A DNA stretch of 64,000 nucleotides from the NCBI RefSeq assembly GCF_002259585.1, contig NZ_MWWS01000009.1, forward strand, positions 1 to 64,000, written 5' to 3'. The notes under the pieces were generated by a model. The model was given only the letters and a program-made list of their open reading frames with translations. It did not search any database and was not told where the DNA came from. This DNA is from Bombiscardovia coagulans. GTDB taxonomy: Bacteria; Actinomycetota; Actinomycetes; Actinomycetales; Bifidobacteriaceae. Position numbers and translations under genes: made by a program. Every line of letters starts with the position of its first letter. The first letter of the stretch is position 1. This document shows positions 48,188 to 62,759 of this stretch, piece by piece.

Positions 48188-49771
48188 ATGACACTCAGTC
48201 TTGTTTCAGCGCTCGATACCCTGCGTACGCACAATCTCCTGCGAGAAGTAATCACTCCCGACCAATGGTCTGTGCTGCCTGAGAATCTACCTACAGCTAC
48301 CCGGGAGTTAGTTTTCAGCGAAATTACCTACGATAGCCGATCCGTTACTCCTACAAGTTTGCTTTTTTGCAAGGGACATTTCCTTCCCTCCTATATCCAA
48401 CATGCTGACCAAGTAGGTTTGAGCGCTTACATCAGTGAACACGATTTCAGCCAGTACACCAACGCTACAGGTATTATCGTCAACGACGTACGAAAGGCCA
48501 TGAGCCTTTTAGCAGCACAGTTCTATAACTACCCTCAACAAGAGCTTAAGATTGCCGGTATCACTGGCACTAAGGGGAAAACTACCACAGCATACTACGT
48601 ACAGGCCTTACTCAATGCGGCCAGCAATGGGCGAGCTGCCTTACTCTCTTCGGTTGATAACTGCTTGGATGGCAAACACTACGTCGAGTCAGAACTGACG
48701 ACCCCAGAGTCGCTTGACCTCTTTCGCATGATGAGACAAGCTGTTGACCATGGAATGACTTATCTTGTGATGGAAGTTTCATCACAAGCATATAAGATGG
48801 ATCGTGTTTTTAATCTCACCTTCGATGTTGGTGTTTTCCTCAACATCTCTCCTGACCACATCAGTCCCGTAGAACATCCGAGTTTCGAAGATTACCTGTA
48901 TTGCAAGAGACAAATAACATATAACAGTCGTCATGTGATTGTAGGTGCAGACCACTCGTATGCAAACATAGTGTTGGAAGATGCCAAAGCTGCCGGAATC
49001 GAAACCACAACCTTTGCAGTAGGCCAAGAATCACCATCACTGAGTACCTACAACGCGTCGGTAGACTGGCTAGCTCAGCCGGAACAAACCGAAGAAAGCA
49101 CAAACAAGTACAGTCTTTACCACCACAACAAACCAATTGCTCAATTCCAGCTTGCCATGGACGGCACATTCAACGGAGCTAACGCAGCAGCAGCTTTTGC
49201 TGTTGTTTCCCAACTCACAGGCGGTCTTGAACCTCCAACTTTCCAAGCAATCAGTGAAGTGCGAATTGCTGGCCGCATGGAAAGATTCCAAGCTCCAGGC
49301 ATGGTCGCATACGTCGACTATGCCCATAACTACGCTTCCACAGCAGCACTGTTAGATTTCTTGCAGGACAAGTACGGGCACCAACACCCCTACATCACCG
49401 TCATAACCGGTTCAGCAGGGGGAAAGGCCATTGACCGAAGGCAAGCAATTGTACAGGCCACTCAAACGAGGGCGAATCGGTTAATCCTAACGGAAGAAGA
49501 TACAGAGTCTGAACAGGAACAGACAGCAGATATCTGCAAAGAAATGCTTGGATATGTCAGCAATCCAGAACTTGATGCGTCTATCATTATAGACAGGCCA
49601 CTTGCGATTTCCCAGGCAGTCAAAACAGCATATGAGCATCCCGATCGTTTAGATGTCATTGCTGTTATCGGTAAGGGCGAAGAGCGCTGGATCAAACGCA
49701 ATGGAAAACACGTGCCATATGAAGGCGACGACCAGATTATTACACGTCTGTTTCAGGAAGTACAGCAATAG
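48188..49771 (+). CDS. murE: MurE-like UDP-N-acetylmuramyl tripeptide synthetase
   Basis: This 527-residue Mur ligase has an N-terminal domain with ITYDSRSVTPTSLLFCKG, the ATP loop GTKGKTT (127-133), the ESELTTPESLDL substrate stretch, NISPDHI and YVDYAHNYAS. It adds the third amino acid to UDP-MurNAc-L-Ala-D-Glu. The meso-diaminopimelate motif DNPR is absent; the aligned part reads LTEEDTESE, so the substrate is probably L-lysine or L-ornithine. It lies outside any dcw cluster and forms an operon with an ATP-grasp ligase and a racemase, 7 and 2 bp apart. Confidence 0.88.
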   Translation: MTLSLVSALDTLRTHNLLREVITPDQWSVLPENLPTATRELVFSEITYDSRSVTPTSLLFCKGHFLPSYIQHADQVGLSAYISEHDFSQYTNATGIIVNDVRKAMSLLAAQFYNYPQQELKIAGITGTKGKTTTAYYVQALLNAASNGRAALLSSVDNCLDGKHYVESELTTPESLDLFRMMRQAVDHGMTYLVMEVSSQAYKMDRVFNLTFDVGVFLNISPDHISPVEHPSFEDYLYCKRQITYNSRHVIVGADHSYANIVLEDAKAAGIETTTFAVGQESPSLSTYNASVDWLAQPEQTEESTNKYSLYHHNKPIAQFQLAMDGTFNGANAAAAFAVVSQLTGGLEPPTFQAISEVRIAGRMERFQAPGMVAYVDYAHNYASTAALLDFLQDKYGHQHPYITVITGSAGGKAIDRRQAIVQATQTRANRLILTEEDTESEQEQTADICKEMLGYVSNPELDASIIIDRPLAISQAVKTAYEHPDRLDVIAVIGKGEERWIKRNGKHVPYEGDDQIITRLFQEVQQ

Positions 49772-49778
49772 GTAAACC

Positions 49779-51017
49779 ATGAAGAATTTTCAACCAGTTA
49801 TCCTTGGCAGCGATATCAATGCATACGGTATGGCCCGAGCCTTCCATGAAGCTTATGGGATAGTATCAACTGCGTTCGCTCACTTCCAGTTGAGCCCCAC
49901 CAAGTACAGTCGTATCATCGATATGCACTTGGTAGAAGGTTTTAATCAGTCCGACGTCTTCGTTGAGAGTTTGGTAAGGTATGCCCAGCAGATGGCCGCT
50001 TCTCAGCCTGGAACTACTCTTGTACTCATCCCGTGTGGAGACAGCTATGCTAACTTGCTCTCGCGCCATCAAGATGAACTGAAACCCTACTATGCTTGCA
50101 ACATTATTAGCCCCAAACTCAATCGCCAGCTCAGTTTGAAGTCATCCTTCTATGAATTATGTGAACAGTACAACCTGCCACATCCCCAAACGGTCAGCTT
50201 GAGTCCATCAGATGTAGCCAGTGGGATGTATCGCAAGCTGCCCTTTGATTTCCCCGTAGCCATGAAACCAGCTGACAGCGATGCTTGGCTCTCGATAGAC
50301 TTCCCGGGCAGGAAAAAGGCCTTTATTATTCAATCAGCGCAAGAGCTCGAAACCCTCATCCTTCGTTCCTACCAAGCAGGTTATCAGGGCGACATGATCA
50401 TTCAAGACTTTATCCCTGGTGACGACTCACGGATGAGAGTACTGAACGCCTACGTCGATCAGCATCATAGGGTGCGTATGATGTTTCTCGGGCATCCCCT
50501 ACTAGAGGATCCAACACCTGAAGCTGTAGGCAACTATGCAGCCATTTTACCTGATTACCAAGAAGAAATTTTCGGCCCTATTAAGGATTTTCTTGAGAAT
50601 ATCAACTATTGTGGAGTAGCCAATTTCGACATGAAGTTCGACGAACGCGATGGCCAGTATAAACTCTTCGAAATTAACTTGCGCCAGGGTCGTTCTTCAT
50701 ACTTTCTGACACTGAACGATTGCAATCTAGCATCTTACTTCGTGGATGACCTCGTCGAAGACACTTCCTTTGACGGACAACCTTTCTTGGCACGGGGCTC
50801 GCGCTTGTGGATGGAAATACCCCGGTCCATTTTTGTTGATTACGTTGAACCTGGCGCTGACAAGGAGCGGGGTTTAGAACTCTTGAACAATGGGAACTGG
50901 GGTACTACATTAGAGTACAAAAAAGATATGTCAGTCTTGCGCTGGCTCATGATTCGGCATATGTTCCATATTTATAAGAAACGATACAAACAGTACTTCC
51001 AAGGGAAAGTGAAGTAA
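49779..51017 (+). CDS. ATP-grasp ligase, probable D-aspartate (cross-bridge) ligase
   Basis: This 412-residue ATP-grasp protein has an N-terminal domain with ILGSDINAYGMARAFHE, the nucleotide-binding VAMKPADSDAWL, IIQDFIPGDDSRMRV and the metal-binding end ANFDMKFDERDGQYKLFEINLRQG in outline. The style is that of D-aspartate ligases (Aslfm/AslA) that activate D-Asp and join it to the lysine side chain of the peptidoglycan precursor. The genomic position between a MurE-like ligase and an Asp/Glu racemase supports this. The exact amino acid is an inference. Confidence 0.8.
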   Translation: MKNFQPVILGSDINAYGMARAFHEAYGIVSTAFAHFQLSPTKYSRIIDMHLVEGFNQSDVFVESLVRYAQQMAASQPGTTLVLIPCGDSYANLLSRHQDELKPYYACNIISPKLNRQLSLKSSFYELCEQYNLPHPQTVSLSPSDVASGMYRKLPFDFPVAMKPADSDAWLSIDFPGRKKAFIIQSAQELETLILRSYQAGYQGDMIIQDFIPGDDSRMRVLNAYVDQHHRVRMMFLGHPLLEDPTPEAVGNYAAILPDYQEEIFGPIKDFLENINYCGVANFDMKFDERDGQYKLFEINLRQGRSSYFLTLNDCNLASYFVDDLVEDTSFDGQPFLARGSRLWMEIPRSIFVDYVEPGADKERGLELLNNGNWGTTLEYKKDMSVLRWLMIRHMFHIYKKRYKQYFQGKVK

Positions 51018-51019
51018 CT

Positions 51020-51733
51020 ATGCTCAACTTTTTCGCCATCATCGGAGGCATGGGCACACTGGCAACTCAGAGCTTTGTTTGTACCCTCAATAAGGCCACT
51101 GCTGCCAGTAAGGATCAAGACTTCCTGAACTACTTGGTGTTCAACGATGCTTCAATACCCGATCGGACTGCCTATATTACAGACAATAGCCAAGACAACC
51201 CCCTCCCCGTCTTGGCACAAGATGTGCAACAAGCCACAGACATGGGGGCCTCTTTTATAGTCATGGCATGCAATACCGCCCATTATTTTTACCCCCAGTT
51301 GCAAGAACTAACCACAGTTCCTATCCTTCATATGCCTGAGTTAGCTATTGATTGGACGAAAGAGCATTACGATCCAAGCACTTACCCCCGCATAGGTTTT
51401 ATGGGCACTGAAGGCACCAAGAAGGCTGGAATATACCGTAACTTAGCCAACAAGGCCGGCTATCAATTAGTCGAACCAGAGCAACTCGTACAAGATCGAA
51501 TTAACACTTTGATTTATGAGGAAGTCAAATCCGGAAAACCGAGCAGGTTACACTATGAAGATGTTATCCAAGAGCTTCTGACAGATTATAACTGCGATAC
51601 GGTACTCCTCGGCTGCACTGAGTTATCAGTACTCAACGAAACATTCCCCTTGCCACAATTACCAATTATTGACGCTCAAGCGATTACCATCGCACAGACC
51701 GTTCAATTAGCAAAAGCTCAGCAAGGTAAATAA
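51020..51733 (+). CDS. Aspartate/glutamate racemase family protein
   Basis: This 237-residue racemase has both catalytic cysteines: Cys84 in VMACNTAHYF and Cys199 in LLGCTELSVL, as in cofactor-independent Asp/Glu racemases. It starts 2 bp after the ATP-grasp ligase stop codon. Given the neighbours it probably supplies D-aspartate (or D-glutamate) for the peptidoglycan cross-bridge. It is too divergent to call MurI. Confidence 0.88.
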   Translation: MLNFFAIIGGMGTLATQSFVCTLNKATAASKDQDFLNYLVFNDASIPDRTAYITDNSQDNPLPVLAQDVQQATDMGASFIVMACNTAHYFYPQLQELTTVPILHMPELAIDWTKEHYDPSTYPRIGFMGTEGTKKAGIYRNLANKAGYQLVEPEQLVQDRINTLIYEEVKSGKPSRLHYEDVIQELLTDYNCDTVLLGCTELSVLNETFPLPQLPIIDAQAITIAQTVQLAKAQQGK

Positions 51734-59594: not shown

Positions 59595-60140
59595 TCAGTT
59601 TCCCATGCTGTTATCAACAGGTACTTCCTGACCGAGGTAAGCCATATCAGCATTCTCTTTCGTTGCTGCTGTCTGAGGGTAACGAGACGGCAGGCACATA
59701 ATCACCAGTTGTGACACAACAGCTACCAATAAGACGATAATGGTTAAGGGGGAAGGATCGTCAAATTTATCTAAACCTGACAATAAAATAACTGCCACAA
59801 CAGACAAACCCTGTGGTATCACGGCCAACCAACCCGATAACCTGACATCATGCAAACGGCGAACCGTCAAGGCGCATTGCGGAACAAACATGACGAGAGA
59901 AAATACCCCGGAAAGAATGACTCCTACACCAGAACCAAACAAACCAGATAGTCCTCTAGTCATAATCCATACAAAGAGACTAAACATCCATATCTCTTTA
60001 CGACAGGCACGCCCTTTACCTCGAGCAAACAGATAAAAAGGCCTCTGCAAGCACTCCTGCAAGGTCGCATCAGGCATGGCATCGAATCCCTTCATCATGT
60101 CCACCCGACGAGGCTTCTTTGAAAATAATGCAATAGACAT
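59595..60140 (-). CDS. DUF805 family membrane protein
   Basis: This is a 181-residue protein with QRPFYLFARGKGRACRKEIWMF near residue 32, then LTVRRLHDVRLSGWL, the two hallmarks of DUF805, and three to four hydrophobic segments. DUF805 proteins are common small inner-membrane proteins of unknown function. AAGGAGGATAAT precedes the ATG, a strong ribosome site. Base composition here is normal, unlike the two genes that follow upstream. Confidence 0.85.
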   Translation of the reverse strand: MSIALFSKKPRRVDMMKGFDAMPDATLQECLQRPFYLFARGKGRACRKEIWMFSLFVWIMTRGLSGLFGSGVGVILSGVFSLVMFVPQCALTVRRLHDVRLSGWLAVIPQGLSVVAVILLSGLDKFDDPSPLTIIVLLVAVVSQLVIMCLPSRYPQTAATKENADMAYLGQEVPVDNSMGN

Positions 60141-60271
60141 ATTATCCTCCTTACCTACCTACTGCACTGTCAGCTCATACTGCCTCGTGCATCACTGCAA
60201 CGAACAGCACCCCTCCCCCGAGACCACAACCATTGTAACCAATACTCAAGCCATAACCAGTACAGCAGGCA

Positions 60272-60775
60272 TCAATCATTATCACTATCACTAGTGGAAC
60301 GCAGCAAAGCAGCAACTAAAGTCAACAAATCGAACAGTAACGCCCAAGCAGCCAACCACTCAAACCGAGCATCACGACCAGCATCAACACACTGATCAAT
60401 CGCCCACAAATCCTGCAAAAACCACAACACACCAACCAACCCCACCGAAGCACACCAAAACAAAGAAGCACCAGCAGAACCAGAACCCCTCGCCAACATC
60501 CACGCCGGCAACACACACGACACCACCATCACAGCCCCAGCACCCAACCTATTACGCACCACCAACGGCACCAACCGAAACCACGACAAAGCCCCCACCA
60601 CCAACACACCAACCGTCACCATCACCCAACGCCACACACCAAAATCAGAACGCGCACCAGAACCAAAAGATACACCAAAACCAGCAAAAAATGGTAACGA
60701 CAACAACACAAACCAAAACCCAGGACGACCCTTACTCTTGTTAAACCGCCATAAAAAAAACAGCGACCGCAGCAC
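60272..60775 (-). CDS. Hypothetical membrane protein in skewed island
   Basis: I do not recognise this 167-residue protein. It is hydrophobic, with about four membrane segments, Trp- and Val-rich (GVWRWVMVTVGVLVVGALSW; SVGLVGVLWFLQDLWAI) and with an acidic C-terminus (TSDSDND). Its codons nearly all end in G or T on the minus strand. It overlaps the upstream gene by 35 bp and has no clear ribosome site of its own, which suggests coupled translation. Confidence 0.6.
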   Translation of the reverse strand: MLRSLFFLWRFNKSKGRPGFWFVLLSLPFFAGFGVSFGSGARSDFGVWRWVMVTVGVLVVGALSWFRLVPLVVRNRLGAGAVMVVSCVLPAWMLARGSGSAGASLFWCASVGLVGVLWFLQDLWAIDQCVDAGRDARFEWLAAWALLFDLLTLVAALLRSTSDSDND

Positions 60776-61148
60776 CAGAAAGCACCCCGACTAGGACACC
60801 CAACGTGGCAAGGTCACGAACCCATGATCGCGAATCAGTAAACACTACCAGCCAACCAAAAGCAAAAGCAGCTAAAAACACCAAACCATAAAACACGATC
60901 TTACGCATCACACCAACACGAGAAAAAGCCCGCTCACCCTCACCAGCAGGCGGCATAACCCGCACCACCCGAGACATAATCGAAGACATCCACTCCCAAT
61001 CCTGAACAGATGCAGCCCAATCACCCGAAACAGCACCACCAGAAGAAGAAGAAGAAGAAGAAGCACTCTGAGAAACACCAGAAGCACCAGCACTAGCAGC
61101 ATCAGCAGTAGTGGCAACACCATCCAATTCCCGATCCACACCAACCAT
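60741..61148 (-). CDS. Hypothetical membrane protein with poly-serine linker
   Basis: I do not recognise this 135-residue protein (from ATG 61148, with GAAGGGG about 6 nt upstream; the frame is open to 61187). An acidic then Ala/Ser-rich disordered N-terminus with a run of serines is followed by WAASVQDWEWMSS and two hydrophobic segments (KIVFYGLVFLAAFAFGWLVV and LGVLVGVLSGAAVAVFFM). It shares the codon bias of its overlapping downstream partner, so the two are probably one unit. Confidence 0.6.
   Translation of the reverse strand: MVGVDRELDGVATTADAASAGASGVSQSASSSSSSSGGAVSGDWAASVQDWEWMSSIMSRVVRVMPPAGEGERAFSRVGVMRKIVFYGLVFLAAFAFGWLVVFTDSRSWVRDLATLGVLVGVLSGAAVAVFFMAV
61041..61063. repeat. AGA/TCT trinucleotide repeat
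   Basis: Seven or more tandem agaagaaga units code for the poly-serine run of the gene on the minus strand. Changes in unit number would alter the serine run without shifting the frame. Confidence 0.8.
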
Positions 61149-61368
61149 CACACACCCCTTCACCGTGCAATGACCATCAGACTTCATTTGTCTACTCGAT
61201 GTGAGTACAGCTCACACAGCTCCCCAGCATGCATAAACTTCCACGCACCGCACACTCTTTTCAATAAAATGGCACTCCAATAAGTATAACTGACAGGAAA
61301 CTCCTATTACACAATTTACTGACTGAAATTGCACACAGTCGTCAAGAAGAGCTGAAAGATGTACTTAT

Positions 61369-61414
61369 TTGCAAGATTATGTTAACGCTGTTACTATATA
61401 AACATTGTTAACAT
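61369..61414 (+). promoter_or_regulatory. Promoter and paired operator before the ROK regulator
   Basis: TTGCAA (61369-61374) and TACTAT (61392-61397) with 17 bp between form a possible promoter. An inverted repeat ATGTTAAC (61379-61386) and GTTAACAT (61407-61414) flanks the -10 box, each half containing the palindrome GTTAAC. This placement suits repression by the ROK protein encoded next. Confidence 0.55.
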
Positions 61415-61442
61415 AGTGTGATCGTTCTCCAAGGAAGCAGAT

Positions 61443-62759
61443 GTGACACAAACCGCAATAGATCCGATTCCCCGCTCACAAGCTGAGATAAATCAGGCAA
61501 AAATCGCCAAAACCCTTCATCAGCAAGGAACTCTATCGCGAGCACAAATTGCCAGAGCTCTTCATCTTACGGCACCAGCTATCTCTAAATTAGCAGCACG
61601 CATGATTGACCAGGAGCTTATCCAAGAAGTCGGGGACATGCCTGGAGCCGGTAACAGACGATCAATAGGTTTACGGCTCAAGTACGAAGGATATAAAGTT
61701 TGCGCTGTAAAATTTGCCAGAAGCAGGATTCAAATTGGACTTTTCGACTTGGCTGGACACCCCTTACAATTGATGGAATTACCGTCAATCAACGAGGCCT
61801 CCATACCTAAAGCGGTTACGGATGTACAAATCGAAGTACAGAAGTTTATCAACCGTGATCCTACTATCATCGCCGTAGGTATAGCGGTACCCGGACCATA
61901 TTTACGCAACGAAGGGCGAATTGCTTTAGTAACATCCATGCAGGGCTGGCGTGGGATTAACTTCATTGAAGCCTTTAATGACGCTTTTACTGTGCCCACC
62001 TTTATTGAGCAAGATGCTCGTGCGGGAGCACTGGCTCAAAGTCTGTTCGTCCCAGCCTTTTCTTCTACAAATCTCGCTTATTACTTAGTAGGAGAAGGTG
62101 TTGGTTTAGGGGTCATTGAGCAAGGGAATCTTATCAACGGCGCTCAGGGCGGAGCTACTGAATTAGGACACATCTCTATTGATATAAATGGAAAAACCTG
62201 TGAATGTGGAAACCAAGGATGCTTAGAGCGATACTGCTCAGCTGTTGCTATCCACCAAGCCATGTGCCAACCACCCTATGTCAGTCATCTAGCTGACGCT
62301 TCAAACCTTAACCATGCAGCTGCCTGTCAACTTCTGTTTTACAGGGCAGAACAGGGTGATGAGCTCGCTCAAACGTTAGTGGAGCACATAGCCGATTACG
62401 TTGGATATGGATGCGTAAACATCGTTAACGCCTTCAACCCTGCCCATATTGTGATCGGAGACATTGTAGCCGGAGCTGGACAACCGCTATTGGAAAGAGT
62501 GAGAGCAATAGTCGCCAAACGTGCTCTTCCGGCATTAAACAATCAAACTCACATTTGCCTTTCACATCTTCCAGCAGACGCTACACTCATGGGAGCTGCT
62601 GCCGTTGCAGTCAGTAACTTCCTCTTATACCCCACCTACTTCGCCCGTCTAGTACAAAAACGAACAATGAACTCAGTAGGTAAACAACAATCACACACAA
62701 CAACGATGCCGCCTGCAAACCAAACAAAGGGGCATCTACCAAGGAAGGACAACATATGA
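61443..62759 (+). CDS. ROK family transcriptional regulator
   Basis: This 438-residue protein has an N-terminal winged helix-turn-helix (about 15-65: GTLSRAQIARALHLTAPAISKL) followed by the ROK sugar-kinase-like domain with GHISID (242-247) and the zinc cluster CECGNQGC (253-260). It starts with GTG at 61443 after AAGGAAG. The stop overlaps the fructokinase start (ATGA, 62756-62759), so the two are co-translated. It probably controls this fructose or sucrose gene set through the repeats upstream; the C-terminal 45 residues are a polar tail. Confidence 0.9.
   Translation: MTQTAIDPIPRSQAEINQAKIAKTLHQQGTLSRAQIARALHLTAPAISKLAARMIDQELIQEVGDMPGAGNRRSIGLRLKYEGYKVCAVKFARSRIQIGLFDLAGHPLQLMELPSINEASIPKAVTDVQIEVQKFINRDPTIIAVGIAVPGPYLRNEGRIALVTSMQGWRGINFIEAFNDAFTVPTFIEQDARAGALAQSLFVPAFSSTNLAYYLVGEGVGLGVIEQGNLINGAQGGATELGHISIDINGKTCECGNQGCLERYCSAVAIHQAMCQPPYVSHLADASNLNHAAACQLLFYRAEQGDELAQTLVEHIADYVGYGCVNIVNAFNPAHIVIGDIVAGAGQPLLERVRAIVAKRALPALNNQTHICLSHLPADATLMGAAAVAVSNFLLYPTYFARLVQKRTMNSVGKQQSHTTTMPPANQTKGHLPRKDNI

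Follow-up and report, generated by a model that had tools for sequence, protein, structure and literature searches.

The MurE, ligase and racemase genes of Bombiscardovia coagulans

The window analysed here is the stretch of 64,000 nucleotides that begins contig NZ_MWWS01000009.1 of Bombiscardovia coagulans (assembly GCF_002259585.1), a member of the Bifidobacteriaceae with a 1.74 Mb genome that is 99.5% complete. It contains three adjacent genes, encoding a MurE-type synthetase, an ATP-grasp ligase and an aspartate racemase (Table 1), and this trio very probably makes D-aspartate and inserts it into the cross-bridge of the cell wall. According to the open reading frame (ORF) calls, the genes are separated by only 7 bp (MurE/ligase) and 2 bp (ligase/racemase), and they would be co-transcribed. 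A sequence-only reading of the window had proposed this order and spacing, the three enzyme families and a racemase with both catalytic cysteines. All of this is borne out, the order and spacing by the ORF coordinates, the families by curated models for MurE and the racemase and by an AlphaFold model with fold matches for the ligase, and the cysteines by C84 and C199.

Table 1. Position of the gene trio and of other features referred to in the text (PLP, pyridoxal 5'-phosphate)
Feature	Position	Strand	Remarks
MurE-type UDP-N-acetylmuramoyl (UDP-MurNAc)-tripeptide synthetase	48188..49771	+	527 aa; TIGR01085 match; loop EDTE
ATP-grasp ligase; predicted to be a D-aspartate ligase of the AslA/Aslfm type that uses the side-chain amine on stem residue 3	49779..51017	+	412 aa
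PLP-independent aspartate racemase (RacD type)	51020..51733	+	237 aa; C84, C199, R49, K170
Segment with strong strand bias	window 60001-62000		GC skew -0.304, AT skew 0.347
Truncated MurE-like protein lacking a P-loop	contig C15:80067-81125 (L263:1498-2559)	minus (L263)	in the dcw cluster, where murE would lie
MurI	C15:132783		separate from the trio
Asn synthetase homologue	contig C12:27555-28697 (L288:781-2739)		sole homologue in the genome
DegT-like PLP enzyme genes	L049:6553-7764, L043:2987-4315, L055:5326-6543		beside FemX-like and ligase genes

The first protein of the trio passes the MurE model TIGR01085 (262.2 bits, cut-off 257.3). The Mur-ligase middle domain is present in six proteins of the genome and, because the other five are FolC (named by a curated-model match) and MurF, MurD, MurC and MurT (named by reading the sequences and their neighbours), no MurE other than that of the window was found in the genome. 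With respect to specificity, it matches the L-Lys-adding model NF010628 (374.4 bits) and the model NF001129 (731 bits), which is named for meso-diaminopimelic acid (mDAP), over the full length, but stays below the curated cut-offs of 536 and 762, respectively. The DNPR loop that is the signature of mDAP-adding MurE enzymes is absent. In its place, the window MurE has EDTE, and the listed Lactobacillales enzymes have DDPx. Because the loop is EDTE and not DNPR, mDAP is unlikely to be the substrate. We also considered the EDT loop as a mark of ornithine-adding MurE enzymes and dropped this idea: in a published table, Gardnerella is listed with lysine (PMC11382707), and it has an EDT loop (one genome), so that the loop does not settle the choice between L-Lys and L-Orn. 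Separately, tandem MurE pairs occur in related genomes (L048, L050, L051, L054, L067, L082 and others); in 15 of 15 resolved pairs, an EDT or EDS loop in the first protein is paired with a DDP loop in the second, which suggests two diamino-acid specificities side by side.

The second protein matches no Pfam family at E≤1e-3. Its AlphaFold model has a mean predicted local distance difference test (pLDDT) score of 92.1, and the closest folds are 2pn1 (Z 25.5, 3.5 Å over 296 residues), PurK-type enzymes and PylC (4ffl); the fold matches also include L-amino-acid ligases. Based on this model and these matches, the protein is an ATP-grasp ligase. K121, K163, E298 and N300 are invariant in 22 aligned sequences and are presumably active-site residues. 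PylC attaches D-ornithine to lysine through the side-chain amine. It shares the ATP-grasp fold (Z 22.5, 3.4 Å over 291 residues) but is only 13% identical to the window ligase and belongs to the pyrrolysine pathway. In a tree of 44 proteins, for which a script capped the number of sequences per clade, the window ligase clusters with 14 bifidobacterial sequences (support 100, starred). This group and 11 Lactobacillales ligases fall together, apart from the bifidobacterial clades at greater distance (unstarred support of 92-94; two of the outside sequences are long-branched).

The third protein passes TIGR00035 (207.5 bits, cut-off 93.1) and PF01177 (146.4 bits, cut-off 31). The aspartate racemase of Pyrococcus horikoshii (1jfl) matches it with E 1.9e-30, and both cysteines, the arginine and the lysine are aligned, with R49 and K170 corresponding to R48 and K164, which we take to bind the substrate in the P. 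horikoshii enzyme. All four residues are invariant in 10 aligned sequences. Because a separate MurI is encoded elsewhere in the genome (199.7 bits, cut-off 146.65), the racemase is not needed for the D-Glu of the stem peptide, and a role as its supplier was ruled out.

Co-occurrence and exclusion across the Bifidobacteriaceae

We searched 189 Bifidobacteriaceae genomes and found matches to the ligase in 102, to MurE in 185, to FemAB in 110 and to the racemase (E≤1e-20) in 79. By identity to the window ligase, the genomes fall into classes with 63-100% (63 genomes, referred to as close ligases), 52-53% (5) and 37-41% (9) identity, with distant or broken ligases (25; in one of these, G007, the match is a fragment with stops and 39% identity over 138 residues) and without a ligase (87). 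The racemase follows the closer ligases and was detected in 63/63, 5/5, 9/9, 2/25 (weakly) and 0/87 genomes of these classes, i.e. in all 77 genomes with a ligase of 37-100% identity. Like D-aspartate ligases, the window ligase has an ATP-grasp fold, conserved charged residues around the presumed active site and a coupled aspartate racemase gene.

FemAB shows the opposite distribution, with matches in 0/63, 4/5, 8/9, 15/25 and 83/87 genomes of the same classes. In the genomes without a ligase, 66 of the FemAB matches have E below 1e-15 and 17 are weaker; the three middle classes have weak matches only. The four genomes with neither a ligase nor FemAB are 57-87% complete, and the window genome has no FemAB match. 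PMC2922099 assigns Gly and L-amino-acid bridges to FemAB-type (Fem) ligases, and bridges of D-Asp and D-Glu to ATP-grasp ligases. To control for kinship, we used a tree of four flanking genes from 127 genomes (G001, G158, G182 and G185 were dropped from 131 because they had too few columns). On the best tree, the close-ligase state requires at least 19 changes. Over starred branches, 17 independent pairs differ in the close ligase; FemAB differs in the opposite direction in 12-14 of these, in parallel in none, and is equal in 3-5 (p 0.0001-0.0005). The flanking genes on which the tree is built might themselves have moved together with the genes next to MurE.

Not only the presence but also the arrangement of the genes is conserved. 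In 47 of the 51 close-ligase loci that were fetched, our own ORF caller places MurE, ligase and racemase on one strand with gaps of less than 300 bp and, because of this, we regard the order as more than chance. Three of the remaining loci (G129, G072 and G086) are contiguous by match coordinates. The one clear exception is G185 (L058), in which the ligase-racemase pair lies ~456 kb from the listed MurE. The ORF caller over-extends starts and loses genes in crowded loci, and two of the 51 loci have no ligase call.

These data also bear on the alternative that the ligase attaches D-Glu to give a Lys- or Orn-D-Glu bridge, with a racemase that serves glutamate. The racemase does belong to the Asp/Glu superfamily, and D-Glu bridges occur in Bifidobacterium (B. 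thermophilum). However, the B. thermophilum ligase is only 26% identical to the window ligase, and the racemase is absent both from its locus and from the genome matched to it (G115). Moreover, MurI is present in the window genome, the window racemase retains the residues aligned with R48 and K164 of the P. horikoshii enzyme, and the racemase accompanies the closer ligases without exception. We therefore consider a D-Glu bridge improbable in B. coagulans.

Bridge cassettes next to MurE

We annotated 130 loci, one per genome and ten of them named; MurE was called in 120 of these, and the other 10 were left out of the tally. The recurring order, with exceptions, is GalM, SigH, often an exonuclease gene, MurE, a cassette, and SMC or FolC. 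The cassettes comprise ligase-racemase, MurE-MurE-ligase-racemase, a FemX-like gene alone, a distant ligase alone, a FemX-like gene with a DegT-like gene and a distant ligase, and a FemX-like gene with a 37-41% identical ligase and the racemase; in some loci, there is none. A FemX-like gene is present in 0/51 close-ligase loci vs 43/49 loci of genomes in which the ligase has no match. Genes for DegT-like PLP enzymes (Table 1) are found in 13 of the 18 fetched distant-ligase loci; the enzymes might provide, or epimerise, a residue of the bridge, for instance D-Ser.

In the 12 fetched loci with a 52-53% or 37-41% identical ligase, a FemX-like gene is present in nine and a DegT-like gene in five. 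This arrangement raises the question of whether D-Asp could be one of two bridge residues also in the window host, as in a D-Ser-D-Asp bridge, with the second residue added by an enzyme that we did not see. Given that FemX-like genes are missing from the close-ligase loci and FemAB from the window genome, a two-residue bridge is very improbable, and we retain a bridge of D-Asp alone.

Among named species, B. indicum and B. aquikefiri, which belong to the same genus group as the window genome (G138, L061 and G130, L064, respectively), and Gardnerella PSS_7772B have MurE-ligase-racemase, and B. merycicum has MurE-MurE-ligase-racemase. B. thermophilum has MurE with its distant ligase. B. cuniculi and B. 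cebidarum lack a ligase and have a FemX-like gene at this locus, with FemAB located elsewhere; B. primatium and B. saimiriisciurei have a FemX-like gene, a DegT-like gene and a distant ligase; B. pongonis has two MurE genes, a FemX-like gene, a ligase, an Asn synthetase and a racemase; and Aeriscardovia has MurE alone at the locus and a weak FemAB match elsewhere. The published bridges are Lys-D-Asp in B. indicum, Lys(Orn)-D-Asp in B. merycicum, Orn(Lys)-D-Glu in B. thermophilum and Lys(Orn)-Ser(Ala)-Ala2 in B. cuniculi. A search of the open-licence literature turned up no table of peptidoglycan types in bifidobacteria. Cassette and bridge agree in 4/4 of these species, although four is few.

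The dcw (division and cell wall) cluster of the window genome contains a MurE-like protein of 337-353 aa, depending on the start codon, between MurF and a gene read as FtsI-like. This protein is truncated (Table 1). Its relatives are present in 49/61 sampled Bifidobacteriaceae genomes and in 41/41 of the better ones (completeness ≥90%, contamination ≤5%). Its profile clearly matches solved MurE structures (2wtz, 1.1e-12), and a direct comparison with the profile of the window MurE family gave a weak match (probability 23.7, E 0.00085). In a set of 119 genomes from the order, the open frames are 295-380 aa long in the nine Bifidobacteriaceae with a match, and matches elsewhere lie in frames of at least 431 aa. 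We read the truncated protein as a putative remnant of the ancestral MurE that would have been retained for another reason.

Taken together, we think it rather likely that a single address at MurE, between SigH and SMC or FolC, serves as an exchange site at which bridge cassettes are swapped, that the cassette predicts the bridge, and that the window MurE took the place of the dcw-cluster MurE, which is now the truncated, P-loop-less protein found across the family. In such a code, ligase plus racemase would stand for D-Asp, a distant ligase alone for D-Glu, a FemX-like gene alone for L-residues or Gly, and a FemX-like gene plus ligase, often with a DegT-like gene, for two-residue bridges. In the open-licence literature, searched by titles only, we found no description of the exchange site or of the retained truncated MurE.

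A probable D-aspartate bridge operon and its relatives

Gene order, enzyme families, conserved residues, co-occurrence and exclusion are observed for the trio; we infer its substrates, the bond formed, co-transcription and the final wall type. With high confidence, we suggest that the trio is a stem and bridge operon for a peptidoglycan with a one-residue D-Asp bridge. In this model, MurE would add L-Lys or L-Orn as the diamino acid at stem residue 3, the racemase would convert L-Asp to D-Asp, and the ATP-grasp ligase would activate D-Asp with ATP and couple it to the amine on the side chain of residue 3, and the product would be a single-residue bridge of type A4alpha or A4beta. This interpretation, which agrees with the D-Asp bridge of A4 type proposed by the sequence-only reading, is based on the gene order, the families, the racemase residues, the coupling of ligase and racemase, the exclusion of FemAB, the separate MurI and the occurrence of the same gene row in Lactobacillales.

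This last point comes from a named comparison in which the best 80 loci were listed, 11 of them from Bifidobacteriaceae. Of the 36 genomes chosen from these loci, 11 are Bifidobacteriaceae and 25 are not; a strong ligase match is present in 23, FemAB in 17 and both in four, and no genome lacks both. Seven more of the chosen genomes have weak ligase matches only, inside frames of ~1060 aa that we read as CarB. The MurE-ligase-racemase row is present in 7/17 annotated loci from outside the bifidobacteria, all from Lactobacillales, with ligases 45-53% identical to the window ligase (the ligase frame is split in L091) and, in six, an AsnH-like gene just upstream. In characterised systems, aslA-racD of Lactococcus lactis and Aslfm of Enterococcus faecium, an ATP-grasp ligase is likewise found beside an aspartate racemase. 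In PMC4155827, AslA is described as the ATP-grasp enzyme that adds D-Asp to L-Lys, with racD in the aslA operon of L. lactis. By contrast, the window operon belongs to a member of the Bifidobacteriaceae and lacks asnH. We draw the likeness to AslA and Aslfm from descriptions and from the Lactobacillales loci. The Asn synthetase homologue on another contig of the window genome (Table 1), which is 54% identical to the MurE-adjacent one of Vagococcus humatus, could serve D-Asp amidation or plain asparagine synthesis. No title in the open-licence literature concerned this locus (aslA/racD/asnH, or FemABX/MurE/racemase in Bifidobacterium); this covers titles only and does not show absence from print.

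Several observations weigh against a dedicated D-Asp operon. The window ligase scores below every NCBIfam cut-off. Its homologues are present in 148/297 genomes of the order at E≤1e-40 (ten Bifidobacteriaceae) and, because they are so common, the ligase family as a whole is not specific for D-Asp and probably serves several D-amino acids. G007 and G008, with distant or broken ligases, still match the racemase weakly. The full row is absent from 10/17 outside loci; in L078, L086 and L107, MurE is next to the racemase and the ligase is elsewhere. Finally, promoter-like sites are not above shuffled sequences (6 vs 5.8) and terminator-like sites barely so (5 vs 3.1, standard deviation 1.8).

ATP-grasp ligases and racemases also occur in peptide and secondary-metabolite pathways, and L-amino-acid ligases are among the fold matches. 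Nevertheless, it is hardly credible that the trio belongs to such a pathway rather than to the wall, because it contains the only MurE found in the genome, its ligase excludes FemAB and Lactobacillales have the same gene row.

The enzymes of the trio are of a known kind; the new part is their setting, a probable cassette-exchange address together with a truncated MurE-like protein kept in the dcw cluster. Peptidoglycan type was long used in bifidobacterial classification (PMC6079163). Because related species carry other bridge-making genes at the same spot, this single locus may reveal the chemistry of the cell wall. Bridge composition is also relevant to wall hydrolases and to host sensing. 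Should the cassette indeed report the bridge, the wall type of a species would be predictable from its genome, and the family would represent a natural experiment in the repeated swapping of the chemistry of an essential polymer.

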